From: Sphingobacteruim zhuxiongii
Lineage (GTDB): Bacteria; Bacteroidota; Bacteroidia; Sphingobacteriales; Sphingobacteriaceae
Assembly (NCBI RefSeq): GCF_009557615.1
Contig: NZ_CP045652.1
Location: forward strand, 4,092,001-4,156,000
Direction: 5' to 3'
Length of the DNA: 64,000 nucleotides
The number at the start of each line of letters is the position of its first letter. Positions within the stretch are counted from its first letter, which is position 1. Below the pieces are notes generated by a model, which saw only the letters and a list, made by a program, of their open reading frames with translations, did not search any database and was not told where the DNA came from. A program made the translations under genes and the position numbers. Below are positions 2,697 through 22,592 of this stretch, piece by piece.

Positions 2697-2766
2697 TTTC
2701 TGGAATTTTGTGATTTAGTTATACGTGTTAAATGAAGTTGAACGTATTTAAACAATGACATTCAAA

Positions 2767-2774: not shown

Positions 2775-2896
2775 ATGCCATTGTAAGTCTGCGCCTTCAA
2801 ACAAATCTTCAGTTAACGAATCGGGGAAATTCGCAAAGTAGTGTTAGTATCTTGATATAGAAGAGGTAAATCAACATTTACCCCTTCAAATCGCTA

Positions 2897-5302: not shown

Positions 5303-5319
5303 ATATGAAACTTTACTAA

Positions 5320-6108: not shown

Positions 6109-6210
6109 TCTTTTTATATATTTTCGAGCAAGCAAAAAGCTCTCCAATCTCATTAGTAAATTAAAATAATTATTGCGTCTAACAAATACAAACATTATTT
6201 GCAGCGTTGA

Positions 6211-6666
6211 CTAAAAATACTTGTGATTATTAAAATAATTTAACGGCCAAGTATAGTCGTCATTTTCACCAACCTCGATGGTGGAATCAGCAAAAACAAG
6301 GATTTCAGAATCGGGCTCCAGTGCCTGAAACGCAGTAGCATATCCCGCTGGGACATTCAATAGAGACATGTCGGAAGCATTAGACACTACCTTTAAGACC
6401 GACAAATCCCTCGATGATGTTATCCAATTATCAACTTCAACTAAGTAAATATTAAAAGATCCCGACAGAGTATAAAACCATCTCTGTTGCTTTTTATGCC
6501 CTCGCCAGCCCCTTATAATGGAAAGATCGGCATTTTTCAATATATAAAAGCGCTTCACAAGGGACATATCAAATTCATTTACATATCTAATCTGTCCTCT
6601 AGCATCTTTTGCGAGACCACCAACAAGACTATTAATCGGCTTTTTTTTCAAATTATCTTTTGACAT
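6211..6666 (-). CDS. WxcM/RmlC-like cupin protein, role in sugar modification uncertain
   Basis: A 151-residue single-domain cupin related to the WxcM-like sugar isomerases and RmlC epimerases. The segment IIRGWRGHKKQQRWFYTLSG (about 49-68) aligns by eye with the RGxHAHK motif of dTDP-sugar 3,4-ketoisomerases. Here the first His is Arg and only the second His is kept, so the normal isomerase chemistry may be changed or lost. The cupin strand pattern continues (FNIYLVEVDNW, LNVPAGYATAFQALEPDSE). The start overlaps the end of the WbpL-like gene by 14 bases, which suggests translational coupling. It could act on the nucleotide sugar used by that transferase or be a non-catalytic binding protein. 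Confidence 0.7.
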   Translation of the reverse strand: MSKDNLKKKPINSLVGGLAKDARGQIRYVNEFDMSLVKRFYILKNADLSIIRGWRGHKKQQRWFYTLSGSFNIYLVEVDNWITSSRDLSVLKVVSNASDMSLLNVPAGYATAFQALEPDSEILVFADSTIEVGENDDYTWPLNYFNNHKYF

Positions 6667-7615
6667 ACCTCAAAACAATAAATTTTTTAAATTTTAGATA
6701 AAACGTACTCATTATTGCCAATAAAATGACTGTAAATAAAATTTGGATATTTGTGTCGCAATTCGCTATAAAAATAACAAATAAGCCAATAATAAATTGT
6801 ATTACTCCATAACTAAAAGAAATTAACAACTTATTATATCCTGCTTCATTCGCTAGATACTGATACAAATGAGATCTATGAGCATCAAATATATTTTCTT
6901 TATTAATCAAACGCTGCAAAATAGTCCAAATCGTATCAATACCATAAACCGTTAGAAACAATAAATATATCAATTGATTCGTCTTTATTACTAAACAGCC
7001 AATCATAAATAACATTATATAGGCAATTGCAACTGAACCGACATCACCAGCAAAACAACGAGCACGAATTCTAAAATTGAAAAAAGCAAACACAATAATA
7101 CTTAAAAGGACAAAATACAAGAAACGTTGGTCAATAAAAGCTTCATTTAAATTGACAATAATTAGAAGTCCGACGACGGATAAACTAAATGCAGCTGTTA
7201 TTCCATTAATCCCATCCATAAAATTACACGCATTAATGACACCAACAACGAAAACAAATAGAATCAATAAAAAATACCACTCCATAGAGATTATCCCTAA
7301 TTCAATAGCCAAAAACAGTACAGCTACGAACTGAATCGACAATCTAATTTTATTTGATAGAGAATATAGGTCATCTAGAAATGATACAGCTGCCAAAGCA
7401 GTCAAACCCAAAACGAAATATGGAAAGGAAAAATTGGCAATGACAAAATAAAGGAGTATTGCAAAATAAAAAATTATTCCACCTCCACGCAAAGTGACCT
7501 CCTCATGAGACGATCGACTATTCGGTCTATCGACGATATTAAACTTTTTTGCTATCCTAAAATAAGTAAGTTCCAGTGCAAAAAGTAGGACAAAAACACT
7601 TAAATAAATTATCAT
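6653..7615 (-). CDS. WbpL/WecA-type undecaprenyl-phosphate sugar-1-P transferase
   Basis: Polyprenyl-phosphate N-acetylhexosaminyl-1-phosphate transferase (GT4 of the MraY/WecA group), which puts the first sugar of the repeat unit on undecaprenyl phosphate. The 320 residues form about ten membrane segments. Conserved cytoplasmic motifs are visible: DDLYSLSNK near 80, NFMDGINGI near 130, AGDVGS near 190 and DAHRSHLYQ near 243, the last being the HRxHxYQ signature of WbpL-type enzymes. Together with the WbpM- and WbpV-like genes it implies that the first sugar is QuiNAc or FucNAc. No separate WbaP-type initiator is present in the window, so this is the likely initiating enzyme of the operon. 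Confidence 0.92.
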   Translation of the reverse strand: MIIYLSVFVLLFALELTYFRIAKKFNIVDRPNSRSSHEEVTLRGGGIIFYFAILLYFVIANFSFPYFVLGLTALAAVSFLDDLYSLSNKIRLSIQFVAVLFLAIELGIISMEWYFLLILFVFVVGVINACNFMDGINGITAAFSLSVVGLLIIVNLNEAFIDQRFLYFVLLSIIVFAFFNFRIRARCFAGDVGSVAIAYIMLFMIGCLVIKTNQLIYLLFLTVYGIDTIWTILQRLINKENIFDAHRSHLYQYLANEAGYNKLLISFSYGVIQFIIGLFVIFIANCDTNIQILFTVILLAIMSTFYLKFKKFIVLRYVKR

Positions 7616-7678
7616 ATTAAAATAAAAACATTGATTTTATATAAAAAACAGTCCTAGGGATGTAAAAATCTGGCAATA

Positions 7679-8611
7679 TTATATTCGAGTCTTTCTATCT
7701 ATAACACAACTCATCGAATCGAACGTTTCTTCTAGACACTTTTCAGTACTATCTGGCAGATCGGAAATAGAGAGTGCGATTTTTACTTTTTCATTTGAAA
7801 CTAAAAAATCACCGGTCATCTTTTTCAATCGTTTCGAATTTAAAGGAATAGGAATGAAATCTCCAATTCGAGCGATTACTTTCACGAGCAGGCTAGGCAA
7901 AGCTATGTTCGGAATATTTTTTTTTGAAACGCGTTTTATTATCGAAATTATTTCCGAAGTCGATATAGATTGATCATCCGCAATATGATAAATCCCGTCC
8001 TTAATAGAATGAGTATTCGTCAGAATTTTAAAAATAAAATAATTAAAATTATTAATCGAAATAAATGTTCTCCTATTATTGAAGGACGCTAAAGGATACG
8101 GATACCCTTTCGAAATAAATTTATATAGAACTGAAAGATTACCCTTATCGCCGGGGCCGTAAACCATGGGAGGTCGAAGTATGAGAACTTTTTTATCTTC
8201 AGCTATAGGTTGATTCAAAAGCCATTCCTCAGCTTCACGTTTTGACTTACCATACCAAGAGTCAGGCCTACATTTCTCATCCTCTCCCAACGGTGTTGTC
8301 GACTGAAACTCTTCGACCGCAGCAATGGAACTTATCTGGATAAATAGGTGCGCTTTAGAACTTTGAAATAATCTAAAGACTTTTTTAGTAAGCTCCAAAT
8401 TTGCATAATAAAAATCTTCCTTAGTCGAATTACCAGAATGGTCGTGCGCTTTTCCAATTAAGTTTATAAATACGGTAGCTGTATCTAAGGACAAATTCGG
8501 CATGCCTTCTCTAATTCCCTGAGCGACAACATTTGAGCCGTTTTTAATTAAATAAGAGGACAAATGCGTACCGATAAATCCAGTGGCGCCAAAAATATGT
8601 ACATTACTCAA
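7679..8611 (-). CDS. WbpV-like NAD-dependent epimerase/reductase
   Basis: Short-chain dehydrogenase of the extended type, 310 residues. The N-terminal nucleotide site is GATGFIGTHLSSYL (8-21), and the catalytic tyrosine and lysine are in WYGKSKREAEEWL (about 138-150). A serine-rich strand (FIQISSIAAVEEF) precedes them. Position next to the WbpL-like transferase matches P. aeruginosa O-antigen loci, where WbpV/WbpK reduce UDP-4-keto-6-deoxy-GlcNAc to UDP-QuiNAc or UDP-FucNAc. That reaction would use the product of the WbpM-like enzyme here. The 5' end overlaps the beta-helix gene by four bases (ATGA). Which of the two products is made cannot be read from sequence. Confidence 0.85.
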   Translation of the reverse strand: MSNVHIFGATGFIGTHLSSYLIKNGSNVVAQGIREGMPNLSLDTATVFINLIGKAHDHSGNSTKEDFYYANLELTKKVFRLFQSSKAHLFIQISSIAAVEEFQSTTPLGEDEKCRPDSWYGKSKREAEEWLLNQPIAEDKKVLILRPPMVYGPGDKGNLSVLYKFISKGYPYPLASFNNRRTFISINNFNYFIFKILTNTHSIKDGIYHIADDQSISTSEIISIIKRVSKKNIPNIALPSLLVKVIARIGDFIPIPLNSKRLKKMTGDFLVSNEKVKIALSISDLPDSTEKCLEETFDSMSCVIDRKTRI

Positions 8612-9735
8612 AATACTTCTATATTGGAATTGTTTGTATAATTTCTCTTAATTTCTTTCACCGAATATTTAACATTAGAATGCTTTGTTTTAGGATTACT
8701 TATTCGCAGATGTGGTGCCCTTCCAAATCCCCTGCGCGTCAATATAGGTCGCGAAACATTATTATTCCAAGAAGGATTCTCGACATTAATGGTTCCCTGA
8801 AGTGATTTACCCTTTTTTCGGTCAATCGGAAGAATTCCTCCAAAATAAAAACCAATATCTGAACCCTCATCTATGTGATTTCTTATATTAATGTTAACTT
8901 GTTTGTTAAGTGGTCCTATTAATTTTCCTAACCCTATGATCAATCCTGAATTTGTATTGTTAAAGGTATAAGCATTTTCAATCAAAATATCATCGATTAG
9001 GTCTTGGTTATTATTAGGTTCTATATCAATCCCGCACATTGGCAAAGTACCATTCGTATTAGAAATGACTGGGCTCTTAATAGAAATTTGACTCCCACTA
9101 GTAATTGACAGTCCATTCCTCCTATTGTAATCTAAGAATGCATTTACGATTTCAACTCCCTTACTAGGTTTCCCAGACATTTGTCCAATATAAATACCAT
9201 CTCCCCAACAATTACGAACAATTGGATTAAGAATTTTTATTCCTTCGCTCCCACGTATATCTATTCCCATACCCCATTCTCCTCCCTTTCCTAAATGTCT
9301 TTTTCTATCGCCCTCTAATACAGGGTTAATCAGAATAACGTTCCTTTTATCGTGGATTTTTACCATGTAATATGTTGATTTTCTCGATGGTTTCAAAACC
9401 AATTTTGATCCTCTTTGAAATTTCACAACAGAACCACTTTTGAAACTTAATCCTTTATCATTTATTAATAATGGAAAATCAGGAAAAATGACATTCAAAT
9501 TTTCATCCAACGCCTTTTGGATGTATTCCGTGTAATCCTTGGAGCCATCATTTACAAAACCTCCTGGTAAATATTTCGTCAAATCAACGAATCTTACGGA
9601 TGGTATTTCAAACTGACTTCTTTCCAAATTTATAGTTTTCGGAACTGAACGATACTTAAAATCTCTTTGCTTTTGAGCACAAGCCGAAATGGAATTGATA
9701 AATAATATTAAGATTAATATATGATACTTATACAT
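8608..9735 (-). CDS. right-handed beta-helix lipoprotein, possible polysaccharide lyase
   Basis: About 375 residues, starting at the ATG at 9735. The frame extends to 9753, but only the inner Met gives a proper signal peptide, which ends in a lipobox ISAC just before AQKQRD. After the signal the chain resembles the pectate-lyase/GH28-type beta-helix fold: FVNDGSKDYTEYIQKALDE, then repeated turns with Asn and Gly (GSEGIKILNPIVRNCWGDG, GVEIVNAFLDYNRRNGLSI). The WGDGIYIG segment recalls the aspartates of GH28 enzymes, but catalytic residues cannot be assigned with confidence. Inside a polysaccharide operon it may trim, degrade or epimerise the polymer at the cell surface. The gene overlaps its neighbours at both ends. 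Confidence 0.75.
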   Translation of the reverse strand: MYKYHILILILFINSISACAQKQRDFKYRSVPKTINLERSQFEIPSVRFVDLTKYLPGGFVNDGSKDYTEYIQKALDENLNVIFPDFPLLINDKGLSFKSGSVVKFQRGSKLVLKPSRKSTYYMVKIHDKRNVILINPVLEGDRKRHLGKGGEWGMGIDIRGSEGIKILNPIVRNCWGDGIYIGQMSGKPSKGVEIVNAFLDYNRRNGLSITSGSQISIKSPVISNTNGTLPMCGIDIEPNNNQDLIDDILIENAYTFNNTNSGLIIGLGKLIGPLNKQVNINIRNHIDEGSDIGFYFGGILPIDRKKGKSLQGTINVENPSWNNNVSRPILTRRGFGRAPHLRISNPKTKHSNVKYSVKEIKRNYTNNSNIEVF

Positions 9736-10807
9736 GTTTCTCCCTATTAACATAACTTTTTATTTTTCTTTGTAAATTCAAATCACAATAATTATGCATT
9801 AACCACGCCAAAATAACTAAAATGCAAAAAACTAAAATAGGCACCAGATATTGCACTATACTTTTCTGATCGATCGCTTTGTTAATGTGCCCTATGAATA
9901 AGACTCCAATATTTTGATGCAATAAATATAAAGGATAACTTATTCCTCCCAAAAACAGCAGAAATTTGTTCGAAAACACTTTAAAGTATTTCTTTCTTGT
10001 TACGAAGGCATAAAAAAGAATGAAACAAAATATTAAGAAAGACAACTCTAATACGCTTAAAAATACTTGAAAATGTAAGGAAATAATGAAAACTATAAGT
10101 AGCCTCTGAAATACAGAAAGCGGTCTTTTCATATATATCAAGTAAAACACAATCCCGTATGTAAAATAGGAAAAGAATTCTGAAAATGATATTAGTCTAA
10201 ATAATTGGAATAAGTCTGTATTAGAAATGTTTATACTTTGTCCTATCCAATTTATTAATAAAATAATGACATTTACCAATAGCCATACACTGATAAACTC
10301 TCGCTTGAATAAAAAAAATAGCGCACCGACTATCAAATAAAATTTCATTTCTACTAACAACGACCAATATACGCCATCAATGAAGTTAATATTCGAATTA
10401 TTAAAAAATATTCTCCAAAATACTGGATCTATAAAACTTATGCTTGGCAGAAAATCGATAGCATTGGTTTTAAAATATTCATTCGGAATGGCCTTTAACA
10501 CTAAGAATGTTAGCAAACTACAAATTAGTAGTAGTGGCAATAAACGAGTCAAACGATTCCTAATGAATGTGATGTAATTTTTACTACGCTCTAATGAGAG
10601 AAAAATTACGAATCCTGAGATTATAAAAAATAATTCAACTCCCAAATAACCGTACTTGAACACAAAAAAATCGTCGATACTATCAGATGAGTATAAGTTC
10701 AAATTATCCCATCGACTGAAGAAATGATAAAAAACGACTAATAAAATCGCTAATCCTCTCATGCAGTCTAAATCCGTAATACGACCTGCGGTGGAGTTTC
10801 TAGTCAT
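9728..10807 (-). CDS. acyltransferase family 3 membrane protein (OafA type)
   Basis: A 359-residue integral membrane protein with about ten hydrophobic helices. The N-terminal signature DLDCMRGLAILLVVFYHFF (about 13-31) contains the Arg and His expected in acyltransferase-3 enzymes, which transfer acetyl or succinyl groups to sugars across the membrane. A second typical stretch is GYLGVELFFIISGFVIFLSL near 53. It lies among glycosyltransferase genes and overlaps both neighbours by about eight bases, so it very likely O-acylates the polysaccharide. The position of the modification is unknown. Confidence 0.88.
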   Translation of the reverse strand: MTRNSTAGRITDLDCMRGLAILLVVFYHFFSRWDNLNLYSSDSIDDFFVFKYGYLGVELFFIISGFVIFLSLERSKNYITFIRNRLTRLLPLLLICSLLTFLVLKAIPNEYFKTNAIDFLPSISFIDPVFWRIFFNNSNINFIDGVYWSLLVEMKFYLIVGALFFLFKREFISVWLLVNVIILLINWIGQSINISNTDLFQLFRLISFSEFFSYFTYGIVFYLIYMKRPLSVFQRLLIVFIISLHFQVFLSVLELSFLIFCFILFYAFVTRKKYFKVFSNKFLLFLGGISYPLYLLHQNIGVLFIGHINKAIDQKSIVQYLVPILVFCILVILAWLMHNYCDLNLQRKIKSYVNREKHV

Positions 10808-11966
10808 TCCCTTTCAGATTATTTGAATATAACTTATCTAAACTGTCCCAGAACAAAAGTTGATCGTATCCATCTTCAATTACTTTTCTAGAGTTTTGAG
10901 CCAAGGATTCTCTCAAAGGTTGATCAGTAATCAACTTCTCTGTTGAGGATACAATCTCTTCCACTGACTTTGTATTTATCAAAAGTCCAGTGACACCATC
11001 ATCAATGATTTCATTTGCGCCATTAATATTAGTAGAAATTATAGAACACTGCATTGCGCATGCCTGCATAAGTACCTGTGGAAAGCCTTCTCTGTAGGAT
11101 GGGAAAACGAAAGCATCGCTCATCTGAAAATATGGGCGAACATCGTCCTTATGATCAATCCATCGAATACTTTGATCTCCAATAATTTTATGCCAACAAT
11201 CGCTACTGATTGGGTCAGCGTCGTCTCGCATGCCAACTAGAACAAGAGCAAGGTTTGAATGTTTAATTTGAAGAATCTGAAATGCTTCAACAAGTTCTTC
11301 GATTCCTTTAGATTTCGCAATTCTACCAACAAAAGATATTACAAATGCATTATTTAACCTTAAGCCTGTTTTTATCTCATTAACTTCTAAACCAATTTGT
11401 GGTGACCTTCTAAAATATTTCAAATCAATGCCATTGCTACTTCCTTTTCCGATTACCTTCACTTTATCGTTTCTAATCCACCCATTCTGAATCGCCATAG
11501 CCGCCTGCATTGGAGAATTGAAAATGACGAAATTAGCACAGGAATAAATTAACTTCTCTAGGCAGATTAATAAGAATCGGTAACTACCCGTCGCTTCTAC
11601 AAGAGGTAATCCCGCGACTGTATGCACTCTAAGTTTAGTTCCGACAAGAAATCCGCCAATCATTGCAATTAACCCGCCTTTTGGAGAATGCGAATGAATT
11701 ATATCTGGTCTATCTCTTCTAAGATATTTAATAAGCCTAAAAAGCTCAAATAAATCACGAAAAGGACTTATACTTCTTGTAATGTAGAGTGGTAAAAATT
11801 TTGCCTTCTCTTCAACTGCCGTTCTAAGTATACGTTCGTCCGGAGAACATAGCAATGTGTAACTATATCCCTTTGTACCTAAATAACTGAATTGCTTTTT
11901 TAACAAAATGCTCAACGAATGTGACACTGTTGAAACCCTGTAAATTTTTATTTTATTCTCCGTCAT
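10800..11966 (-). CDS. GT4-family glycosyltransferase (GT-B fold)
   Basis: A 388-residue cytoplasmic glycosyltransferase. The N-terminal half has HSHSPKGGLIAMIGGFLVGT near 91; the C-terminal half shows VISFVGRIAKSKGIEELVEA near 208 and the nucleotide-sugar site SYREGFPQVLMQACAM near 293. In this EX7E motif the second Glu is Gln (confirmed in the DNA, codon CAG), which is unusual for the family. It resembles CapM/PglA-like enzymes that act on lipid-linked intermediates. It shares a four-base overlap with the upstream transferase gene. The sugar it adds is unknown. One of three GT4 genes in the operon. Confidence 0.88.
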   Translation of the reverse strand: MTENKIKIYRVSTVSHSLSILLKKQFSYLGTKGYSYTLLCSPDERILRTAVEEKAKFLPLYITRSISPFRDLFELFRLIKYLRRDRPDIIHSHSPKGGLIAMIGGFLVGTKLRVHTVAGLPLVEATGSYRFLLICLEKLIYSCANFVIFNSPMQAAMAIQNGWIRNDKVKVIGKGSSNGIDLKYFRRSPQIGLEVNEIKTGLRLNNAFVISFVGRIAKSKGIEELVEAFQILQIKHSNLALVLVGMRDDADPISSDCWHKIIGDQSIRWIDHKDDVRPYFQMSDAFVFPSYREGFPQVLMQACAMQCSIISTNINGANEIIDDGVTGLLINTKSVEEIVSSTEKLITDQPLRESLAQNSRKVIEDGYDQLLFWDSLDKLYSNNLKGND

Positions 11967-13117
11967 ATTTCTTTTAGAAAATCACCAATAAATTTCTCTC
12001 TTTTTAACTGTAAATCCGTTTCTGAATACTCAGCTGCTTTTGAAAAATTATCGATTGCCATAGCATCCAAAACATTAGTATTAAATGCTACGTATTGTAT
12101 CTGTTCACAGAGTTGAGACACGTCTCCTTTGTTATGTATATATTCCTGCTTCAACAATTCCGGAATACCGCCAACATTAGAAGCAAGAACGGGACATCCT
12201 CTGGAAAACGCTTCAATCACGATCCTTGGCAACCCTTCGGTCAAAGATGGTTGTATTAACAAATCAATGTTATCTAAAAAGTCCATCATTTCCTCTCCTG
12301 CTCGAATTGAACCACGAAGATTAACATTCTTGCTAAGTCCATAAGTATCAATTTTGTGTATTAATTTTAAATTCTCTCCACCCCCAACAAAATCCACTTT
12401 TATTTTCTTAATCAGTGGTCCTAATTGATTCAAAGCCTTTAATAGAACTTCGTGCCCCTTGTATGGCACGGAAATAGAACCAACTAAACCTATGCGAAAA
12501 CATTCCCTATGATTAATATTTTTTATTCGCTCTAAACGATTTCTCAAAACATCTGGATTCCCACTAGCAATATTTACATTTGAAATATTGATAGTTCTAC
12601 CTGAACAACTATAAATCGATTGGAGATAGCATTTTGTGACATAAATTGTAAACCGTGACTTTCGTACGATAGATTTCATTTTAGTTTCGACTAACATTCC
12701 AAAAATTTTACCTTTAATTCCAGAATGCATCATACTTTCTTTCGCTGAACCAACTACCTCTATCAAATAAGGTTTGCAGATGTCGGAACAAATGTCAGCT
12801 GACATTAGACCTAGTATACTGGGCAATCTAATTATAAGTGCATCGCACTTATCAATAATAAGCTGTAATTCGCTTTTAATTTTATTATAATTTCTAAGTA
12901 AATCGACAGGACCTTTATAACTATGTACTAAGCGAAAAGTAACATTCTCATAGGACGAAAGCACATTTAGTTTTTTCTCTCCAGCTCTTCCTATGACAAT
13001 CAATTTTTCCGAGACAGACAAATACCTAGCCCAAGTAGAAGCCGGTAATCCCCCGCCGGAATAGAATAGGTTATTTTCCTCATAAAAATTGTGATCGTGA
13101 ACGAATCCTAAAACCAT
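11963..13117 (-). CDS. GT4-family glycosyltransferase
   Basis: A 384-residue GT-B enzyme expected to add one sugar to the undecaprenyl-linked repeat unit. The C-terminal domain contains RIGLVGSISVPYKGHEVLLK near 215 and PSLTEGLPRIVIEAFSRG near 300, where both glutamates of the EX7E motif are present. The N-terminal acceptor domain is divergent, starting MVLGFVHDHNFYEENNLFYS, so donor and acceptor cannot be named. It begins one base after the end of the upstream acetyltransferase gene and overlaps the next glycosyltransferase by four bases. Confidence 0.88.
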   Translation of the reverse strand: MVLGFVHDHNFYEENNLFYSGGGLPASTWARYLSVSEKLIVIGRAGEKKLNVLSSYENVTFRLVHSYKGPVDLLRNYNKIKSELQLIIDKCDALIIRLPSILGLMSADICSDICKPYLIEVVGSAKESMMHSGIKGKIFGMLVETKMKSIVRKSRFTIYVTKCYLQSIYSCSGRTINISNVNIASGNPDVLRNRLERIKNINHRECFRIGLVGSISVPYKGHEVLLKALNQLGPLIKKIKVDFVGGGENLKLIHKIDTYGLSKNVNLRGSIRAGEEMMDFLDNIDLLIQPSLTEGLPRIVIEAFSRGCPVLASNVGGIPELLKQEYIHNKGDVSQLCEQIQYVAFNTNVLDAMAIDNFSKAAEYSETDLQLKREKFIGDFLKEI

Positions 13118-13118
13118 A

Positions 13119-13682
13119 CTATATTTCTTTAATTAATTTCGCTGGTACACCTCCCACAAGATTATGTTTCGGGACACTCTTATTAACAACTGCACCAGCT
13201 GCTACTACACACCTTTCTTCAATTTCAACACCGCACAATACACGCACACCACAACCAATCCATACATCATCATGAATTTTAATTTTTTCGTAGACAACCT
13301 GATTATACTTAATTGGAAAAGAGAGATCTTCAAAAGTATGATTAAAGCTAATAAGGGAGCTGCCGTGGGCAATCGAGACATTATTTCCTATTTCGATTAT
13401 ACCAACTGCGTCAATGTAACAAAAGTCGTGGATACTTAAATTATCCCCGCATACGAAATTCGACCAATTCTTTATTATTACGTGTGTCCCAATATAAACG
13501 TTTTTACCAATTCTCGCCCTACTCGCTAAAAGGCAGTATCTTAATGATAAAAAAAAGTAACCAGAGAATGGGCTAATGACTTCCCAAATAAACCTACAAA
13601 AGAAACTTGGAAATATCCTCAGACATTTTGAGATTGTCCTCAACAGCGGGTTAAATCGTTCGAATAACATTCTACCGTTCAT
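13119..13682 (-). CDS. hexapeptide-repeat O-acetyltransferase
   Basis: A 187-residue protein. About 55 N-terminal residues are hydrophobic and basic; the rest is a left-handed beta-helix made of isoleucine-patch hexapeptides (ARIGKNVYIGTHVIIKN, IEIGNNVSIAHGSSLISF). The loop INF-like ISFNHTFED carries the His typical of the NodL/maltose acetyltransferase branch, and the end VVAAGAVVNKSVPKHNLVGG is the usual cap of the family. It likely moves acetyl from acetyl-CoA to a sugar hydroxyl or amine of the repeat unit. The start codon overlaps the polymerase gene by 11 bases. Confidence 0.85.
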   Translation of the reverse strand: MNGRMLFERFNPLLRTISKCLRIFPSFFCRFIWEVISPFSGYFFLSLRYCLLASRARIGKNVYIGTHVIIKNWSNFVCGDNLSIHDFCYIDAVGIIEIGNNVSIAHGSSLISFNHTFEDLSFPIKYNQVVYEKIKIHDDVWIGCGVRVLCGVEIEERCVVAAGAVVNKSVPKHNLVGGVPAKLIKEI

Positions 13683-14811
13683 AAGAATATAAGTTGCGAT
13701 GAAAATAAATAATTGAAAAAAATAAAATCAATGCTAATTTAGAGTCGTAAAAAATAAAAAATTGACCACTTATAATAAAACTTATAAGAACGGCAATACT
13801 CGCAGCAGAAAGTCCTAAGTTTGGAAATTTTCCAAGAAAAATAAATTTTACTAAAGAATAGTGTCCTTTTAAAAACAAAAATAAGCTCAATATACCGCCG
13901 ACAAACAAAAGTTCCAAAAATGTATTATGCGTATAGACATAAAAATCATTATAATACTTGAAAGTCCCTATACCATGCCCTATTATTGGTGAGTTTAAGA
14001 ACAGCTCAAATGCGATAGTTATTAATTCAAATCTTTCGTCTTCTTCAACATTAGTCTCCGCCATCCGTTTAAGAAGCACCGTATCTGAACCATATAACAT
14101 TAAAAAATATCCGACAGATATGAGAGCGACCACGCCAATTAGAATATTCTTAATACCTCCTTTTTTAAGAAGAAGTGACTTAACCACGATATAAACAACG
14201 AACAAAGTAAGAATCGTGACTAAAGACTGTCGGGAACCAGAAAGAATTAATGCTATAAAGAAAACAAATAGTATTCCGATGATTAAAAATTTAAAAGGTT
14301 TTGAAATACTTAAATTCAACAACATAAATCCAGCACAAAAGCTTATTATTATCGTGTGCGAAAATGAATTTAAACTTAAAACTCCCTCAGTTAACTGACG
14401 TGTTTGCAGAGCGCTCAAGCTGGCACTACGCATATAGAAAACAACAAGAATAAATCCCCCAACGGTAATTGCAGTTAGTATTCTCTTAAAATCATTTTCG
14501 TCTTTTATAAGGAAAGACGAAAATATTCCCATCACACATGCAATAAAAAAACTAAGAAAACCAGCGAGTGCTTCATCTGCGTACCTTGACAACATAGCTG
14601 TAATCAACAATATTAATGCAAATTGTATTTGGATGGAAACTTCTTTGTTGGAAAGAACTCTCAAATACAGTCTATCGCTTATTATAAACAAAGCGCTTAC
14701 TACCAATAGAATTATAAATAAATAATTTGGCACAGCGAATAACATCGTAGGTCCTAACGCAAAAAGAGATGCGACAAATAGGATATTCAATATGTTGTAT
14801 ATCTTTTTCAC
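13672..14811 (-). CDS. Wzy-like polysaccharide polymerase (O-antigen ligase superfamily)
   Basis: A 379-residue integral membrane protein with 10-12 hydrophobic helices. The Wzy_C-type signature is present: SGSRQSLVTILTLFVVY near 187, and the large periplasmic loop with GHGIGTFKYYNDF and YVYTHNTFLELLFVGG near 278-305. In a Wzx/Wzy system this enzyme joins repeat units in the periplasm. Sequence alone does not separate polymerase from ligase; the presence of Wzx, Wzc and Wza in the same operon favours polymerase. The gene is very A/T-rich. Confidence 0.82.
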   Translation of the reverse strand: MKKIYNILNILFVASLFALGPTMLFAVPNYLFIILLVVSALFIISDRLYLRVLSNKEVSIQIQFALILLITAMLSRYADEALAGFLSFFIACVMGIFSSFLIKDENDFKRILTAITVGGFILVVFYMRSASLSALQTRQLTEGVLSLNSFSHTIIISFCAGFMLLNLSISKPFKFLIIGILFVFFIALILSGSRQSLVTILTLFVVYIVVKSLLLKKGGIKNILIGVVALISVGYFLMLYGSDTVLLKRMAETNVEEDERFELITIAFELFLNSPIIGHGIGTFKYYNDFYVYTHNTFLELLFVGGILSLFLFLKGHYSLVKFIFLGKFPNLGLSAASIAVLISFIISGQFFIFYDSKLALILFFSIIYFHRNLYSYER

Positions 14812-14812
14812 C

Positions 14813-15352
14813 TCATTTCTTATTTAGAAGCCTAGCTGGTACACCTCCTATACTGCTGTTTCCATCAAATGAAGTTATTACCACAGCATTTGCGCCAATC
14901 TTGCAAAAATCACCAATCTTAACTGGGCCAAGAATTTTTGCTCCAGCACCGACCAGTACATTATTACCAATAATAGGTTGAGAATTGCCGTCCATATCAC
15001 GTTTATTCGAGTTACCACCTAGCGTAACCCCTTGCCGAATGTCAAAATTTCTACCAACAACCACCCTGCCGCCAATCACGATACAGCCAACATGTCGAAT
15101 ACAAAAGCCTTCCCCAATTTTAGCATTCGTACTTATCCAACAATTACACAAGTGATGCATTATCTTTTCACAAACAATAGCAAGCAACCTTAGTTTTTTC
15201 GTTCTAAAATAAAACCCCAAACGATATAAAAACACAGCTCTGAAGCCAGCATTAAAAATCACAAAACCAAAAATTGCAATGGAGGATGCTCGTTGTGAAT
15301 TTTTGTATTGTTTGTAATCGCACTTTAACTTTTGAAAAACATTCATAACCAA
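14813..15352 (-). CDS. serine-acetyltransferase-like (CysE-type) hexapeptide acetyltransferase
   Basis: A 179-residue protein with an N-terminal helical stretch (about 1-70) and a left-handed beta-helix. FCIRHVGCIVIGGRVVVG near 98 and FDIRQGVTLGGNSNKRD near 119 match the CysE active-site region. The C-terminus (SSIGGVPARLLNKK) closes the helix. Short CysE-like proteins in capsule operons acetylate sugars; a role in cysteine synthesis is unlikely here because the usual N-terminal domain is missing. It overlaps the upstream glycosyltransferase gene by ten bases and starts the pair acetyltransferase-polymerase. Confidence 0.85.
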   Translation of the reverse strand: MVMNVFQKLKCDYKQYKNSQRASSIAIFGFVIFNAGFRAVFLYRLGFYFRTKKLRLLAIVCEKIMHHLCNCWISTNAKIGEGFCIRHVGCIVIGGRVVVGRNFDIRQGVTLGGNSNKRDMDGNSQPIIGNNVLVGAGAKILGPVKIGDFCKIGANAVVITSFDGNSSIGGVPARLLNKK

Positions 15353-16488
15353 TCTGTAAACATCTTGAAACGAGCAAGTTGATTCGCTCTAGAATAATTT
15401 GCTTGAATAAAATTTTTGTTACTCTCTAACTTATCACCTAAATACCTGCGCTCCGAGACAAACTTCAGGATAGCCTTCTCTATTTCGCGATGATCCCTTG
15501 GTTTTATCATATAATCCAGATTATTAAATAGCAAATCAGGAATTGCGCCGACGTTCGTAGCAATGACAAAAGTCTCCAAAGCCATCGCTTCCATAACTAC
15601 TCTCGGCATGCCTTCTGAATAACTAGGAAGAAGAACCAAATCCGCGCCTTTAATTATGTTTAAAACATCATCGCGAAATCCTAAAAACTCAATATGATTA
15701 TCTAACTCATACTTCGCTATATAGTCTTTCATTTCTTGAAAAAAAGCTCGAGTGTTTGCCTTTCCTTCAAAAGTATTCCCAATAATATATAATTTTATAT
15801 TGCATTTGGCGACTAAGGTTTTCATTGCTTCGATTGCTTCTTTTATCCCCTTTTCAGGAATTACAGACGCGGGTAACGCGATATTGATAAAATTTTTGTC
15901 GAAATCGAAATTATCCCCAATATCTAATGCATCGAGATCAATGATATTATTAATAATAAAAACGTTATTATGATTTTGGCTAAAATAATTTGATTGTGAA
16001 CGAATATTTTCAGATTGAACAAAAAAAACGTCAACAAAGTTTTTATGCAAAAATGTTTTCAGTTTCGAACCATGTTTAAACGCTCCTTCACCCCTAACGA
16101 AAAAACCTATTCGTTTTTTCAAAAAAAACTTAACTAACAATAGCGGAAAGAGTCCTTTAAATGTATTCGTCCAAATAAATTCTACTTTATCTTCTCGAAC
16201 TTTACGTATTAAAGAAAGCGTCGTTGCGAAGTAAGTCGGAAAATATCTCAAAATTGACAATATCCTTTTAAACTTGTTCTTCCTTCCTAATACAGAATTG
16301 TCTATCGGTTTAACCACATAGTATTTAAGACCTTTTTGATTCGCTGCCTGCGTAAATCGATCACACTCTCCATGTGCGTCGAAAAGTAAGATATCAAAGC
16401 CGTTTGAAGATAAGTTATTTATTAAATCAATCGTGGATTTTTGCGCCCCACCCAAATTGTAAATAAAATCGAAGTAAGCGTATCTCAT
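15343..16488 (-). CDS. GT4-family glycosyltransferase
   Basis: A 381-residue GT-B enzyme. The N-terminal acceptor domain begins MRYAYFDFIYNLGGAQKSTI, the glycine-rich loop common in GT4 proteins. The C-terminal half has NIALPASVIPEKGIKEAIEA near 202 and PSYSEGMPRVVMEAMALETF near 288, with an intact EX7E motif. It probably adds one residue of the repeat unit on the cytoplasmic side. It overlaps the flippase gene by four bases, so it is coupled to it. Donor sugar not identifiable. Confidence 0.88.
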   Translation of the reverse strand: MRYAYFDFIYNLGGAQKSTIDLINNLSSNGFDILLFDAHGECDRFTQAANQKGLKYYVVKPIDNSVLGRKNKFKRILSILRYFPTYFATTLSLIRKVREDKVEFIWTNTFKGLFPLLLVKFFLKKRIGFFVRGEGAFKHGSKLKTFLHKNFVDVFFVQSENIRSQSNYFSQNHNNVFIINNIIDLDALDIGDNFDFDKNFINIALPASVIPEKGIKEAIEAMKTLVAKCNIKLYIIGNTFEGKANTRAFFQEMKDYIAKYELDNHIEFLGFRDDVLNIIKGADLVLLPSYSEGMPRVVMEAMALETFVIATNVGAIPDLLFNNLDYMIKPRDHREIEKAILKFVSERRYLGDKLESNKNFIQANYSRANQLARFKMFTDWL

Positions 16489-17768
16489 CGTTTTATAATG
16501 TTCTTGATATTCTTAATTGAAAAATTCGGAATCAAGATTCTAGAGATAGAAATGCCATAACGTGACTTAGCTATATACAAGGCAGTTAATCCCATGAGAA
16601 TACTTGAAAATAATTGCGCGAATCCAGCTCCTTTTACACCGTATAGTTTAATTAAAATCACGCTCAAAATAATATTGCTGATCCCTCCAACTAATAAGCA
16701 GACTAAATTATATTTTACATTACCATCAGATATAAAGAGTTTCAGCAAGGATTTGCTTATTAAAAAACCAGTTGCCCCAAAAATTATAATTTGAACCAGA
16801 CTCGTCGCTGGCAAAAACTCCTTCCCGAACAATATCAAAACGATCCAATCCCCAAAAAGTCCAATCAATATGCATCCTACAATGGAAACAAGGACTAGAA
16901 AATTCATAATTCGCTCTACACTTTTTTTTAACTCGATACCACTCAGTTGAGCCCAATGTGAGTAAAGTAATCTCAAAAAGCTGATGAATGCAGTATTAAT
17001 CAGGGTTGTTACTGATATTGCTCTTGAAAAATATCCGACTGATGTAAAATCCGAAGTATAATATTTTAGAATAAATAATGTAATAGAACTGTTTATTAGT
17101 ACAAGAAAATCAGAAAGATTAACTTGACTACCATAAGAGAAAGCTTCTTTTAAGTACTTAACATTGATGCTGAAAGTCAACTTAATTCTATTCTTTTGTA
17201 TCAATAATGCCAATATTAATCCAATTAACGGCCAAATAAAAATATTTAAGAAAAGAATATTATTTAGATTCAATAAGTCGTACAAATAAAGAAACAATAA
17301 TATACCAACACAAAGTACAGTAGGTAAAACATCAATTAACGACATTCGTTTAACATCTTGATCGGCGATATTTAACGAATGAAAAACGGTTCTGGAATTA
17401 GAGAAAAAGATAAATCCTATAACCGACAATATTATAATAATATTAACCTCGCCAAAAAAATCAGCATAAATCAACATTAACGCAACAATTACAGAACTTA
17501 ATAGTGATAATAACTGTGTGGCAATCAATGTACTACCGATTACCGTATCGCGATCCAATTTTCTCTTATTTATAAAATATATGATACCCATCGGTAATCC
17601 AAAACTACCAATCTGGGCCCCAAAAACAGCGACCTGCCTTAATAAAGACATCTGTCCAACCAGCTCAGGACCCAATGCTCTACTCACAATCATTGTTTGC
17701 ACCAAGCCGAGCCCTAGAGATAAGTAGCTGGACATCGATGTTATTATTCCTTTCTTTAAAATCGACAA
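16485..17768 (-). CDS. Wzx-like polysaccharide flippase
   Basis: A 427-residue membrane protein of the MOP/PST superfamily with about 12-14 helices. The N-terminus MSILKKGIITSMSSYLSLGL is typical, followed by VSRALGPELVGQMSLLRQ, the conserved loop of RfbX/Wzx proteins. It should flip the completed undecaprenyl-PP-linked repeat unit to the periplasm for the polymerase at 13672-14811. It is the first gene of the variable block, 20 bases downstream of the UDP-sugar dehydrogenase gene. Confidence 0.88.
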   Translation of the reverse strand: MSILKKGIITSMSSYLSLGLGLVQTMIVSRALGPELVGQMSLLRQVAVFGAQIGSFGLPMGIIYFINKRKLDRDTVIGSTLIATQLLSLLSSVIVALMLIYADFFGEVNIIIILSVIGFIFFSNSRTVFHSLNIADQDVKRMSLIDVLPTVLCVGILLFLYLYDLLNLNNILFLNIFIWPLIGLILALLIQKNRIKLTFSINVKYLKEAFSYGSQVNLSDFLVLINSSITLFILKYYTSDFTSVGYFSRAISVTTLINTAFISFLRLLYSHWAQLSGIELKKSVERIMNFLVLVSIVGCILIGLFGDWIVLILFGKEFLPATSLVQIIIFGATGFLISKSLLKLFISDGNVKYNLVCLLVGGISNIILSVILIKLYGVKGAGFAQLFSSILMGLTALYIAKSRYGISISRILIPNFSIKNIKNIIKR

Positions 17769-17788
17769 GGTTGTAGAATTATTGATTG

Positions 17789-19075
17789 TTATAATTTTGA
17801 GTCAACTTGCTGTGATAGCACCCCTTTAACATCATAGATAATTGCTTTATCCTTTTTAATAGATTCAAAATCCAAATCAAGAAATTCTTTGTGTGCAACT
17901 CCAAGAATTACCGCATCAAACTTTCTACTTGGTAGTTCAACAACACTTTCAATTCCGTACTCATGCTCAACTTCCGCTGGATTTGCCCAGTGATCATATG
18001 TTGTAACCTTAATTCCGTAATCTTCTAGGGCTCTAATAACATCAACAATCTTGGTATTTCGAACGTCAGGACAGTTCTCTTTAAACGTCACTCCTAACAT
18101 TAATGCTTCCGCCCCATTTACATTGATTCCTTTTTTAATCATTGTTTTTACAACTTGTGATGCCACATATTCTCCCATAGAATCATTTAGGCGTCTCCCC
18201 GCTAAAATAATCTCCGGGTGATAACCGTGCTCCTGTGCTTTTTGTGCTAAATAATATGGGTCTACTCCAATACAATGACCTCCTACAAGTCCTGGTTTAA
18301 ATGGAAGAAAATTCCATTTCGTTCCGGCGGCCTCCAAAACAGCATGAGTATCAATATTCAAAAGATTAAAAATCTTTGCTAACTCATTTACGAAAGCGAT
18401 ATTGATATCGCGCTGTGAGTTCTCAATAACTTTTGCTGCTTCTGCTACTTTGATTGCAGGGGCAAGGTGCGTGCCGGCCAGAATAACTGATTTATAAATG
18501 TTATCCACTTCTTTCCCTATTTCAGGAGTAGATCCAGAAGTCACTTTTAAAATTTTCTCAACAGTATGTTGTTTATCTCCTGGGTTAATACGTTCTGGTG
18601 AATATCCAGCGAAAAAATCAACATTAAATTTTAGACCTGAAACCTTTTCCAATACGGGAATACATTCTTCTTCAGTAACTCCTGGATATACCGTTGACTC
18701 ATATACAACGATATCTCCTTTTTTCAACACTTTTCCTACTGTTTCAGAAGCTTTATACAAAGGTGTTAAATCTGGTCTATTATTTTTATCTACCGGAGTA
18801 GGTACGGTTACCACATAAAAGTTTGCATTTTGTATATCAGCCAGTTGATTTGAACAGAATAGTCCTACCGTAGCCTCATTTTCAAAGGGATTGCTATCAA
18901 CTAAAACCCCTTTAAGAACTTCATCTTCCACTTCGAGTGTTAAATCTTTACCGGAACGAAGTTCATCGATACGCTTTTGATTAATATCAAAACCAAGTAC
19001 AGGATATTTTGTAGCGAATAATCTCGCTAGAGGCAAGCCTACGTAACCTAAACCAATAACAGCTATGTTTTTCAT
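17789..19075 (-). CDS. TviB/WbpO-like UDP-N-acetylhexosamine 6-dehydrogenase
   Basis: NAD-dependent oxidation of UDP-GlcNAc (or UDP-GalNAc) to the uronic acid. The 428 residues start with the nucleotide motif [14 protein letters not shown] (6-19). The catalytic cysteine lies in [20 protein letters not shown] near 265, and the C-terminal UDP-binding domain starts near [19 protein letters not shown] (330). The motif wording fits the TviB/VipA/WbpO group more than UDP-glucose dehydrogenase. Its partner is the TviC-like epimerase gene directly upstream (34 bases apart); together they would make UDP-GalNAcA. Confidence 0.92.
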
Positions 19076-19108
19076 TTTAAATTCGTAAAATTTATTTTCA
19101 GTTATTTA

Positions 19109-20077
19109 TTATCTTAAATTCTCCCAATACCACTTCGTTGCCTCTTTCAGCCCCTCTTTTATCACGTGCGATGGTTCGTAACCAAGTAGACTTTTCGCTT
19201 TTTCAACTGATGCTAGTGAGTGTGGAATATCTCCTTGCCTGTTAGGACCATGGACCACATCAACTTTTGCGATTTCAGAATCGTATTCAGTTAAGAACTC
19301 CTTTAAATACCCAACCAATTGATTAAGCGTCGTACGATCCCCAACAGCAGTATTATAAACCGTATTCACAGCATCTGGGTTGTTAGTCAACATTGCTCGC
19401 TCATTCATCTGAATGACATTATCGATATACGTAAAATCACGAGAATAGTCGCCCGCACCGTTGATAACCGGACTTTCGTAATTCATAAATTTCTTTACAA
19501 ACAATGGAATAACTGCCGCATAGGCTCCATTAGGGTCTTGTCTGCGTCCAAAGACATTAAAATAGCGTAAGCCTATTGTTTCTATCCCGTAGGTTTTGGA
19601 GAATATCTCAGCATAGAGTTCATTGACATATTTTGTTATTGCGTAAGGGGATAATGGCTTTCCAATAACATCTTCTACTTTAGGCAAATTCTCAGAATCA
19701 CCGTAGGTCGACGATGAGGCCGCATAGATAAAGCGCTTAACATTCGCATCGCGCGCCGCGACTAACATGTTTAAAAATCCAGACACGTTAACTTCATTCG
19801 ATGTCTGCGGGTCTTTAATCGAGCGTGGAACGGAACCTAAAGCTGCCTGATGCAATACGTAATCTACACCTTTAACAGCTATTTGACAATCTTCCATATT
19901 CCGAATGTCTCCTTCGATCAATTGAAATTTGGAGTTTCCTTCATGCAGAGTCAAGTTGTGACGATGCCCCGTAGCAAAATTATCAAGTACAACTACTTGA
20001 TGACCTTTTCCTAGGAAGTACTCCGTTAAATTGGAGCCAATGAATCCAGCTCCGCCGGTAATTAATATTTTACTCAT
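19109..20077 (-). CDS. TviC/WbpP-like UDP-N-acetylhexosamine 4-epimerase
   Basis: Extended SDR enzyme of 322 residues that interconverts UDP-GlcNAc/GalNAc or their uronic acids at C4. Visible motifs are TGGAGFIGSNLTEYF (7-21), VVLDNFATGHRHNL near 30, YAASSSTYGDSENLP near 118 with the catalytic Ser, and SPYAITKYVNELYAE near 149 with Tyr and Lys. The ATGHxxNL segment is characteristic of the WbpP/TviC branch, not GalE. It lies between the nucleotidyltransferase gene and the TviB-like gene with gaps of 17 and 33 bases. Confidence 0.92.
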   Translation of the reverse strand: MSKILITGGAGFIGSNLTEYFLGKGHQVVVLDNFATGHRHNLTLHEGNSKFQLIEGDIRNMEDCQIAVKGVDYVLHQAALGSVPRSIKDPQTSNEVNVSGFLNMLVAARDANVKRFIYAASSSTYGDSENLPKVEDVIGKPLSPYAITKYVNELYAEIFSKTYGIETIGLRYFNVFGRRQDPNGAYAAVIPLFVKKFMNYESPVINGAGDYSRDFTYIDNVIQMNERAMLTNNPDAVNTVYNTAVGDRTTLNQLVGYLKEFLTEYDSEIAKVDVVHGPNRQGDIPHSLASVEKAKSLLGYEPSHVIKEGLKEATKWYWENLR

Positions 20078-20094
20078 CTATTTATGTTGATTAT

Positions 20095-20589
20095 CTATTT
20101 TCCATTTTTCAAATTTTCTTTCTCCGCTACAATCTTTCTCAAGCCGGAGCTAGAAAACCTATGATCTCGACTGTTAAAATACAGCTCGATTCCTTTCTCC
20201 TCACAGTATTGTCTTCCTGTAAAGTCTCTATCTATATATTCATCTCCAACAATTCGAACATCAAGCTTAAAAGACCGCAATATATCTTCTAAATCTTGTT
20301 CTGTTGAATAAGGGACAATTTCATCGACATATACACACCCTCTTAACTGAATATACCTTTCGACAACAGTTTGCGTTGGCGCATTTTTATCCGGTCTATC
20401 TAAAGTGGGATCCATTTGCAAACCACATATCAAATAATCACACTGCCTCTTCGCTTCAGCAAGCATCATGATATGTCCTGCGTGTAACAAGTCGAATGTA
20501 CTAAAAGTGATTCCTACACGAGGACCTGGATTATAATCCTTTGGTTTAGCTACTATGTTAGCTTTCTCACTTTTTTCAGTTTCTTTCAT
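20095..20589 (-). CDS. TagD/RfaE-like cytidylyl- or adenylyl-transferase
   Basis: A 164-residue nucleotidyltransferase of the HIGH superfamily. GITFSTFDLLHAGHIMMLAE (about 27-46) holds the HxGH motif, and the KMSKS-equivalent appears as HRFSSSGLRKIV near 142-153. The fold and length agree with glycerol-3-phosphate cytidylyltransferase-like enzymes. About 20 polar residues precede the domain. Between ugd and the tviC-like gene it suggests that an activated alcohol phosphate (CDP-glycerol type) may decorate the polymer, but I see no clear CDP-alcohol transferase in the window. Substrate therefore open. Confidence 0.8.
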   Translation of the reverse strand: MKETEKSEKANIVAKPKDYNPGPRVGITFSTFDLLHAGHIMMLAEAKRQCDYLICGLQMDPTLDRPDKNAPTQTVVERYIQLRGCVYVDEIVPYSTEQDLEDILRSFKLDVRIVGDEYIDRDFTGRQYCEEKGIELYFNSRDHRFSSSGLRKIVAEKENLKNGK

Positions 20590-20618
20590 ATGGTTAATTG
20601 TTAAAAATGATTAATCAA

Positions 20619-21998
20619 TTACTCCCCAATTGCATAGTAGATGAATCCTAGCTCTTCCAATCGATTTCTATCTAATAACTTTCTACCATCAAAAACGAAG
20701 GCTGGCTTTTTCATATTGTCCTTAATTCTATCCCAATCGAAGTCTTTGAACTCATCCCACTCTGTGAGGATTGCGATACCGTGCGCATCCTTGCAAGCTT
20801 CATAGGCATCTTCAGCTACTTCGAGTAAATACTCGTTCTCGCTATTAGTCCTTGATTGTAGATATTCTAAATCTTTATAAATCTGATGTTTCTGAACTTT
20901 CGGATCAAATACTGCGATCTTCGCTTGTTCTTCTAATAGATGATCTGCCACATAAATTGCCGCAGATTCTCTCGTATCGTTCGTGTTTTTCTTAAAGGCC
21001 CATCCCAGAAAAGCAATTTTCTTGCCATTTACGGTATTATACATCGATTGTATTATCTTTTCTGCAAATCTTGTTTTCTGATGGTCATTAATACGGATCA
21101 CTTGATCCCAATAATCCGCGACTTCATTCAGGTTATATGACCGAGCAATATATACTAAATTTAACAAATCTTTTTGAAAACATGAGCCACCAAAGCCGAC
21201 TGAAGCTTTCAAAAATTTTGATCCTATTCTGGAGTCCTGACCTATGGCGTGTGCAACTTCATCAACGTTGGCTCCCGTCGCCTCACATAGTTCTGAAATG
21301 GAATTAATAGAAGAAACTCTTTGGGCCAAGAATGCATTCGCGACTAATTTTGACAGTTCAGAAGACCAAAGGTTGGTAGTAATAATTCGCTCATTCGGCA
21401 CCCATGCCTGGTATATATTTTTCAAGGCTTGAATAGCACCTTGATCTTCTCCACCAATTAGGATACGATCCGGATTTTGCAGGTCAGCAATTGCTGTACC
21501 TTCCGCCAAAAACTCAGGATTTGAAAGTACATGAAATTGAACCCCGTTACCCGTATGATCCAAAATACTTTTAATGGTAGCAGCGGTACGCACAGGTATC
21601 GTTGATTTCTCAACTATAATCTTTGAAGTAGTTGAAACTTCCGCAATTTGTCTTGCACAAAGCTCAATAAATTTTAAGTCAGCCGCCTGCCCTTTCCCTT
21701 TTCCGTAGGTCTTTGTAGGTGTATTAACTGAAATAAAGATCATGTCGGCTTCTTCAATAGCTTTAGTCACATTGGTAGAAAAGAAAAGGTTCCTTCCCCT
21801 AGCTTCCAATACGACTTGATCTAAACCAGGCTCATATACAGGCAGACTCTCTAAGTTTTCATTATTCCAAGCGTTTATTCTGTCAACATTTAAGTCAACA
21901 ACGGTTACTTGTATTTCTGGATTTTTTTGCGCGATCACGGACATCGTTGGTCCTCCAACATATCCAGCTCCTATACATGCGATCTTCTTAATTCTCAT
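20619..21998 (-). CDS. ugd: UDP-glucose 6-dehydrogenase
   Basis: Makes UDP-glucuronic acid from UDP-glucose with NAD. The 459-residue length and wording resemble the animal-like UGDH branch: [20 protein letters not shown] (9-28), [20 protein letters not shown] near 89, catalytic Cys in [20 protein letters not shown] near 272, and [20 protein letters not shown] near 333. It is the second gene of the operon, 34 bases after the regulator gene. It indicates that glucuronic acid, or a sugar made from it, is a component of the polysaccharide. Confidence 0.95.
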
Positions 21999-22032: not shown

Positions 22033-22545
22033 TTAATCTTCTTTTTGAAAAAGAATTATTTGCTGTTGAACTTGTTTGTCAAGTTCAAAAAATATAAAAA
22101 CCTTCTTTCCCAATAATAACTCGATTTTTGCAGCAAGTTGTTTCAAATAATCCGTATCAAGATTATTTCCAAGAACTAATACTTCTATCGTACCGGAATC
22201 AATTCCTTTAGCATAATCACCTAAAAGGCTCACTTGTTTAACATCTCCGGACTTTTCAAGAACACTTTCAATCGCTTTGTCGATTCCTAAATATTTTCTT
22301 ACAAGATTCTGAAGTGACTCAAACAAGGGATGCTGCGTGTTTGCTCGGTAATAGATGCGCTGATTTTGCTGTTCTCGCAGTAGGTATCCGGCATCGGTAA
22401 GTTGGTTAAGCTCTTTACGAACCGCATTAGTGGATTCATGGAATTCTTCCGCGATACCACGCAAGTATCCCTTATTTGTTGCTGAAACAAAAAATTTGAT
22501 AAGCAATTTTAATCGGGTCTTCGACGTAATAAGCGAGTCCAACAT
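22033..22545 (-). CDS. winged-helix regulator with degenerate nucleotidyltransferase-like domain
   Basis: First gene of the polysaccharide operon, 170 residues. Residues 1-75 form a winged helix of ArsR/MarR type (helix-turn-helix around GIAEEFHESTNAVRKELNQL at 30-49, wing around EQQNQRIYYR). Residues about 95-165 resemble a pol-beta-type MNT nucleotidyltransferase: LLGDYAKG (107-114) matches the GSYAxG motif and TIEVLV (119-124) sits where DxDLLV would be. The catalytic Asp pair is replaced by Thr and Glu, so enzyme activity is unlikely and a sensing or dimerisation role is more plausible. A consensus promoter lies directly upstream. I infer, but cannot prove, that it controls this operon, perhaps its own promoter. 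Confidence 0.8.
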   Translation of the reverse strand: MLDSLITSKTRLKLLIKFFVSATNKGYLRGIAEEFHESTNAVRKELNQLTDAGYLLREQQNQRIYYRANTQHPLFESLQNLVRKYLGIDKAIESVLEKSGDVKQVSLLGDYAKGIDSGTIEVLVLGNNLDTDYLKQLAAKIELLLGKKVFIFFELDKQVQQQIILFQKED

Positions 22546-22562
22546 AAGTTAGTATTGAGCAA

Positions 22563-22592
22563 CAAAAGTACTCAAGATTTTTAATAAAACAA
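22563..22592 (-). promoter_or_regulatory. consensus Bacteroidota promoter of the polysaccharide operon
   Basis: The minus strand reads TTG (22592-22590), 19 bases, then TACTTTTG (22570-22563). This is an exact match to the TTG-N19-TAnnTTTG consensus. The predicted start of transcription near 22559 leaves a leader of about 14 bases before the ATG at 22545. Confidence 0.7.

Follow-up and report, generated by a model that had tools for sequence, protein, structure and literature searches.

Bacteroides capsule operons begin with dedicated regulators, the UpxY proteins, which are elongation factors of the NusG type. In MntA/HepT-type pairs, an active AMPylase is found together with a HEPN partner. 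To our knowledge, few dedicated transcription regulators have been described for the polysaccharide loci of environmental Bacteroidota. AbiEi antitoxins of the type IV AbiE systems are described in PMC7319586 as winged-helix proteins that autoregulate through inverted repeats and have a nucleotidyltransferase-like toxin as partner.

The window (the whole 64-kb stretch of DNA analysed) belongs to a genome consisting of one 4.32-Mb contig, whose closest named relatives, among the matches listed, are Sphingobacterium species. It encodes a regulator made of a winged helix and an MNT-like domain (Table 1). Like UpxY, this protein leads an operon in the same phylum, but it matches no NusG model. It shares the MNT fold with MntA and with proteins of other HEPN-MNT pairs; unlike these pairs, it has neither an adjoining HEPN gene nor a catalytic Asp, and it possesses a winged helix, which the matched MNT chains do not have within the aligned range. 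Compared by description only, AbiE differs in that the nucleotidyltransferase is a separate toxin, whereas it is fused and catalytically lost in the window protein. ArsR/SmtB and MarR-type repressors have a similar winged-helix fold and an operator lying over the promoter. However, the NCBIfam metalloregulator model NF033788 scores 21.6 bits on the window protein against a cut-off of 55, the protein contains no Cys, in contrast to the metal-binding cysteines of ArsR/SmtB, and it carries the MNT-like domain in addition. Winged-helix repressors that autoregulate are a known kind, and so are MNT proteins; their combination with a GAGTA-N7-TACTC operator would be new, since neither the regulator family nor the operator was found by title or abstract in the open-access literature, among the matches listed. 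The regulator is probably a local autorepressor dedicated to the polysaccharide operon that its own gene leads.

Table 1. Features of the regulator gene, its promoter and its presumed target in the window
Feature	Position	Strand	Remarks
Regulator gene	22033..22545	-	170 aa, winged helix + MNT-like domain
Winged-helix part, residues 1-83	22297..22545	-	AlphaFold model; Foldseek and VIA matches to ArsR/MarR-type regulators
Arg29 codon	22459..22461	-	Residue varying with the outer operator base
MNT-like domain, residues 84-170	22036..22296	-	PDB profile search; separate structure prediction and VIA
Decayed nucleotidyltransferase motif GDYAKGIDSGTIEVLV, residues 109-124	22174..22221	-	T119 and E121 replace the Asp pair
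Predicted operator GAGTACTTTTGTTGCTC, inverted repeat with 7-base centre	22557..22573	-	Kept at <=1 mismatch in 211/234 members
-7 promoter box TACTTTTG, within the operator	22563..22570	-	TAnnTTTG consensus
Upstream promoter element TTG	22590..22592	-	19 bases from the -7 box
Polysaccharide gene run, downstream of the regulator	756..21998	-	19 ORFs, presumed target

The regulator gene and its protein family

An earlier note, made from the sequence alone, had given the range of the regulator as 22033-22592; the reading frame stands and ends at 22545, the rest up to 22592 being promoter. The whole protein scores below the cut-off of every Pfam and NCBIfam model, giving only sub-threshold winged-helix matches, and a phmmer search of the PDB sequences gives a single match (E 1.6). 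The ORF is real beyond chance, since relatives are encoded in 29 of the 101 genomes sampled from the taxonomic family and in 60 of the 392 sampled from the phylum. With another family member as query, matches were obtained in 74 of 250 genomes in a larger sample of the taxonomic family, and the class gave matches in 77 of 395 genomes; each of these family, class and phylum tallies takes in a few weak or partial matches. No relatives were found in viral contigs. The regulator represents a Bacteroidota family beyond the reach of the Pfam and NCBIfam models.

Scanning a single genome for each species yielded at least 577 stretches encoding relatives, of which the best 80 were retained. The residue and palindrome counts given below are based on 234 distinct member proteins gathered from the loci, excluding a relative consisting of the winged helix only (L029), the pattern-only loci L141-L177, and proteins shorter than 120 aa or with too little profile coverage; in the alignment (A1), one sequence is short of its first residue. 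Residues N40, R43, E45 and G114 are invariant in all 234 members, and G109 is present in 233. Shorter relatives from three genomes (G469, G284 and G364) match the winged helix alone (approximately residues 1-86, E 1e-9 to 1e-11) and are possible winged-helix-only cousins. A contig labelled as a Thermoanaerobacteraceae MAG (L058) encodes a Sphingobacterium-like copy (77% over 118 residues), which is probably a binning error.

Polysaccharide locus and gene neighbourhood

The regulator had been described as the first gene of a polysaccharide operon. Indeed, 19 further ORFs follow on the same strand down to position 756, separated by 63 bases or less save for one gap of 200, and the regulator and these ORFs would form one transcript. 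The products of the run include nucleotide-sugar dehydrogenases, one of which is encoded by the gene next to the regulator, a cytidylyl/adenylyltransferase-like protein, an epimerase, a flippase-type protein, glycosyltransferases, acyl- and acetyltransferases, a polysaccharide export protein, a chain-length/kinase-type protein and a Polysacc_synt_2 dehydratase. The polysaccharide region extends past the regulator, with an rml cluster upstream (25254-28621); between the two lie two ORFs and a 192-base gap that holds the regulator promoter. The ORF upstream of the regulator (22738-23337, minus strand, 199 aa) has no Pfam match, and ORFs with 26-28% similarity to it are located upstream of the regulator in three other loci (L046, L048 and L059).

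Homologues of the polysaccharide genes of the window were found in 71 of the 80 named loci and in none of 20 control stretches, which were hand-picked 20-kb stretches from genomes of the same phylum; as the window's own operon served as query, close relatives are favoured. Some of the 9 named loci with no operon homologue are short contigs. Among 20 phylum-wide contexts, 14 contained operon homologues, and in four of the other six (L346, L350, L353 and L354) the next gene looked glycan-related by eye. The regulator family is thus usually located in polysaccharide loci. In six of the 80 named loci (L070, L081, L086, L097, L099 and L107), the next gene is NusG-like by motif, and the Pfam NusG model matched in all three cases tested; where such a gene adjoins, a single operon may couple the control of initiation with that of antitermination. 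A next gene that is NusG-like by eye was also seen in three of the phylum-wide contexts (L338, L345 and L348). In two loci (L034 and L037), the regulator is followed by a gene for a Schlafen AlbA_2 / HATPase_c_4 protein.

Winged helix, MNT-like domain and decayed active site

The winged helix proposed in the earlier note was recovered by the structural searches: for the first half of the AlphaFold model (pLDDT 83.7, pTM 0.56), Foldseek and VIA-align ranked winged-helix regulators first, the best match having a Z of 11.0 over 82 residues (rmsd 2.4). As winged helices swamped the search with the whole model, the C-terminal domain was predicted alone, from 62 sequences (pLDDT 85.9, pTM 0.75). The pol-beta-like C-terminal part, on which the earlier note had made its reading depend, was found here as well. 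Indeed, (i) the best structural match is MntA (7bxo_A, Z 10.0, rmsd 2.3, 85 of 87 residues), (ii) rows 1-11 of the VIA list are all MNT-type nucleotidyltransferases (Z 10.0 to 8.2), unrelated ribosomal chains beginning at Z 6.6, and (iii) a profile search of the PDB sequences retrieved the nucleotidyltransferase 2rff (E 0.0028), MNT antitoxins lying below significance in the same search (E 0.13-0.34). Pfam matches on the 62 C-terminal domains are weak (Polbeta in 14, NTP_transf_2 in 5, E up to 1) and neither model matches the window protein's own domain; the assignment of the MNT fold therefore rests on the PDB profile search and the structural matches.

This domain had been likened to the pattern GSYAxG...DxDLLV with the Asp pair changed to Thr and Glu. 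The change is confirmed by the profile alignment to 2rff, which places T119 and E121 on the first and second catalytic Asp, respectively; the GS part of the likeness fails, since the window protein reads GD. The domain has the nucleotidyltransferase fold of the MNT / pol-beta superfamily but neither its GS motif nor its catalytic Asp pair. Furthermore, its nucleotide loop is approximately four residues shorter than in intact homologues. Asp at the first catalytic position (119) occurs in none of the 234 members; at position 121, 142 members have Asp and 75 have Glu, and the position of the GS-motif serine is Asp in 155 and Ser in 5. The loss of the active site is thus common to all sampled members and no peculiarity of the host genome. 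From these residues, the MNT-like domain is predicted to be catalytically dead, and it would most likely serve as a dimer interface and/or as the receiver of a release signal, the latter coming from a ligand or a partner protein.

Two more specific roles of this domain can be considered. It could be only a dimerisation or partner-binding module, with a protein as signal, for instance a component of polysaccharide assembly; MNT domains bind HEPN partners in the solved complexes 7bxo, 6m6v and 8xeh and the catalytic residues are gone here, whereas the partner protein is only putative, so that we consider this a real possibility that falls somewhat short of an even one. That the domain senses a nucleotide or a nucleotide sugar, such as a product of the dehydrogenases whose genes follow directly, and then frees the operator appears rather unlikely; this product control would refine the autorepressor reading and is compatible with it. 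The fold is typical of nucleotide-binding enzymes, the gene adjoining the regulator encodes a nucleotide-sugar dehydrogenase, and the loop glycines 109 and 114 are retained (in 233 and 234 of the 234 members), but the loop is shortened. The GS serine of nucleotidyltransferases usually contacts phosphate. Because this serine and the first catalytic Asp are gone from nearly all and from all members, respectively, ordinary nucleotide binding seems less likely.

Promoter and predicted operator

The promoter noted earlier, TTG-N19-TACTTTTG, is exact (22563-22592, minus strand), with 17 bases from its last G to the ATG; exact TTG-N19-TAnnTTTG has two further matches in the window, counting both strands. 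The -7 consensus TAnnTTTG is documented for flavobacteria in PMC9723704. A scan for sigma-70-type promoters and terminators around the regulator gene gave nothing above shuffles.

The -7 box lies within an inverted repeat that is conserved in the family. Upstream of the regulator gene, GAGTA-N7-TACTC is present with at most one mismatch in 211 of the 234 members (137 exact), against 1.55 in shuffles; in the first set analysed, the same held for 95 of 104 distinct upstream regions, against 0.68 in shuffles. For 12 of the 234 members, no palindrome within two mismatches was found across 250 upstream bases. The consensus widens to tGAGTA-N7-TRCTCa, according to letter counts from 186 sites selected with a flank requirement. 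The site contains the box TAnnTTTG in 121 of the 211 cases and lacks it in 90, and beside 111 of the 211 no TTG-type promoter can be recognised. A TTG-N17-21-TAnnTTTG promoter is recognisable in 100 members; here the site is centred on the -7 box in 87 cases, begins 7-23 bases past the downstream end of the box in 12 and lies upstream of it in one. The autoregulation proposed in the earlier note thus gains support from a conserved palindrome in the regulator's own core promoter, to which binding is predicted and strongly suggested; repression of the operon is likely, and a site on or downstream of the -7 box fits a repressor.

The opposite sign of control, in which the regulator would recruit or position RNA polymerase from the palindrome as an activator, is improbable. 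The binding sites of activators are usually found upstream of the core promoter, whereas 99 of the 100 sites are on or downstream of the -7 box; in favour of activation, the promoter sites are conserved and activators are able to autoregulate. For the autorepressor, the following mechanism can be proposed: a dimer of the regulator would bind TGAGTA-N7-TRCTCA through its winged helices, and, since the site covers the -7 box, the bound dimer would block RNA polymerase, switching off the regulator and the operon together.

A reading of the palindrome as an RNA hairpin was rejected by reasoning, the left arm lying upstream of the expected transcription start. In a divergent group of loci (L023, L024, L025, L027 and L028), a conserved GC-rich stretch like GTGACYGAGGRGGCGAAGC, viewed in the last 40 bases preceding the start codon, is located between the palindrome and the ATG and may be an RNA element; a search of Rfam with seven loci gave no match. 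Two loci (L097 and L109) have two tandem AAGTAC-type palindromes upstream of the regulator.

Distribution of the operator and covariation with the regulator

The exact site occurs once in the 4.3-Mb genome, where the runner-up has two mismatches; within three mismatches, the operator pattern occurs 9 times and a reversed control 22 times. In the window, the loose pattern (one mismatch) does not exceed chance (4 found vs 4.4 expected), and in the genome a loose pattern is rarer than its control (4 vs 11); the significance of the site comes from its position and its conservation. In 24 genomes that carry the gene, GAGTACYTTTGKTRCTC was found 25 times and its reversed-pattern control not once; 18 of these sites are at the gene's own promoter and 7 are at 3.5-8.5 kb on the same contig. 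The 25 sites are confined to 18 of the 24 genomes; in the other six, the sites deviate in the centre or in an arm, with at most two arm mismatches each. The exact pattern is absent from all of 33 genomes that lack the regulator gene; 22 of them belong to the same family and 11 to the class, and together they are part of the listed non-matching genomes. In the 80 named loci (1.48 Mb), 69 own-promoter sites and 7 others were found, the latter including a site inside a gene and without the usual centre (L047). An extra site in L044 lies 58 bases ahead of a nucleotide-sugar dehydrogenase gene. In L042/G045, the own-promoter site is lost and another is kept 7.5 kb downstream in the same locus. As the operator sites are near-unique and are sited at or near the gene, the predicted target is the local locus and not a wide regulon.

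Residue 29, which the model places at the start of the helix preceding the recognition helix, is Arg in 225, Asn in 6 and Lys in 3 of the 234 members, and it varies together with the operator. In all six Asn29 members, A replaces G at the outer left operator position, whereas G...C is found in 207 of the 213 Arg29 members whose site is readable (two Arg29 sites, L060 and L069, are read in a shifted register); the three Lys29 members have the right arm TACCC. The Asn29 and Lys29 variants form one clade each (support 0.87 and 0.93), and each therefore counts as one event. This pairing of residue and outer base offers a ready test of specificity.

It is very improbable that another protein binds the palindrome and that its tie to the gene is one of linkage only. 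The clustering of most second sites in one genus-level group (g4) would agree with such a situation, against which stand the covariation with residue 29, the absence of the pattern from the gene-less genomes, and the site that L042/G045 retains at a distance from the gene. The autorepressor reading is supported by a palindrome that is conserved, near-unique, tied to the gene and, where a promoter is recognisable, mostly on or downstream of the -7 box. If it holds, the family provides a dedicated regulator of such polysaccharide loci, with a predicted operator that is directly testable in many genera.

Relation to HEPN modules and possible origin

Homologues were retrieved from plasmids of Pseudomonadota and Actinomycetota by tblastn. 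Fusions of a winged helix and a nucleotidyltransferase from Comamonas (WP_175506280.1), Cupriavidus (WP_151073275.1), Bradyrhizobium (WP_248889801.1) and Rhodococcus (WP_097388427.1) share full-length homology and domain order with the window protein; the Bradyrhizobium protein matches it with E 3e-8 over 81%, and the Comamonas protein matches a relative (L130) with E 9e-13 over 88%. Four of the five retrieved plasmid homologues exceed the cut-offs of Polbeta and NTP_transf_2 and have GS with SD[IV]D[LV], while the Rhodococcus homologue keeps GS and DID without a Pfam nucleotidyltransferase match. Each of the five is directly followed by a gene for a protein of 127-153 aa, one of which exceeds the Pfam HEPN cut-off; the other four have no Pfam match and are similar by eye. 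The Bradyrhizobium gene has a palindrome with 11-bp arms just upstream, like the window's upstream palindrome. In a reverse search with an intact protein (L360), the window gene was the sole match in its genome (E 1.6e-10).

The plasmid fusions thus keep GS, the Asp pair and a HEPN or HEPN-like neighbour, whereas in the window gene the motifs are lost and polysaccharide genes adjoin: no HEPN gene lies directly beside it, its neighbours being the nucleotide-sugar dehydrogenase gene and an ORF without Pfam match. That the regulator is still a working enzyme, or the working antitoxin of a HEPN module as its full-length plasmid homologues would allow, is hardly credible given these neighbours and the absence of the first catalytic Asp from all 234 members.

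As for descent, the family would come from, or share an ancestor with, the winged-helix nucleotidyltransferases of HEPN modules, of which it appears to be a catalytically lost, toxin-less branch; the catalytic motif and HEPN gene of the plasmid homologues suggest a domesticated antitoxin. More broadly, we tentatively put forward, at clearly less than even chances, that polysaccharide switches with a single operator arose across the phylum from such a regulator, the antitoxin nucleotidyltransferase having lost catalysis and toxin and become a derepressing sensor of a nucleotide sugar or a polysaccharide-assembly protein. If true, this would be a clear example of an enzyme-type antitoxin that has become a repressor, and its pseudo-enzyme domain would invite the question of what it does today. 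One assembly counted as Bacteroidota (G450 / L361) holds an intact module, in which a HEPN-like gene follows that of an intact winged-helix nucleotidyltransferase and a CCCAATATGGG palindrome is close by; the contig that carries it may be foreign.
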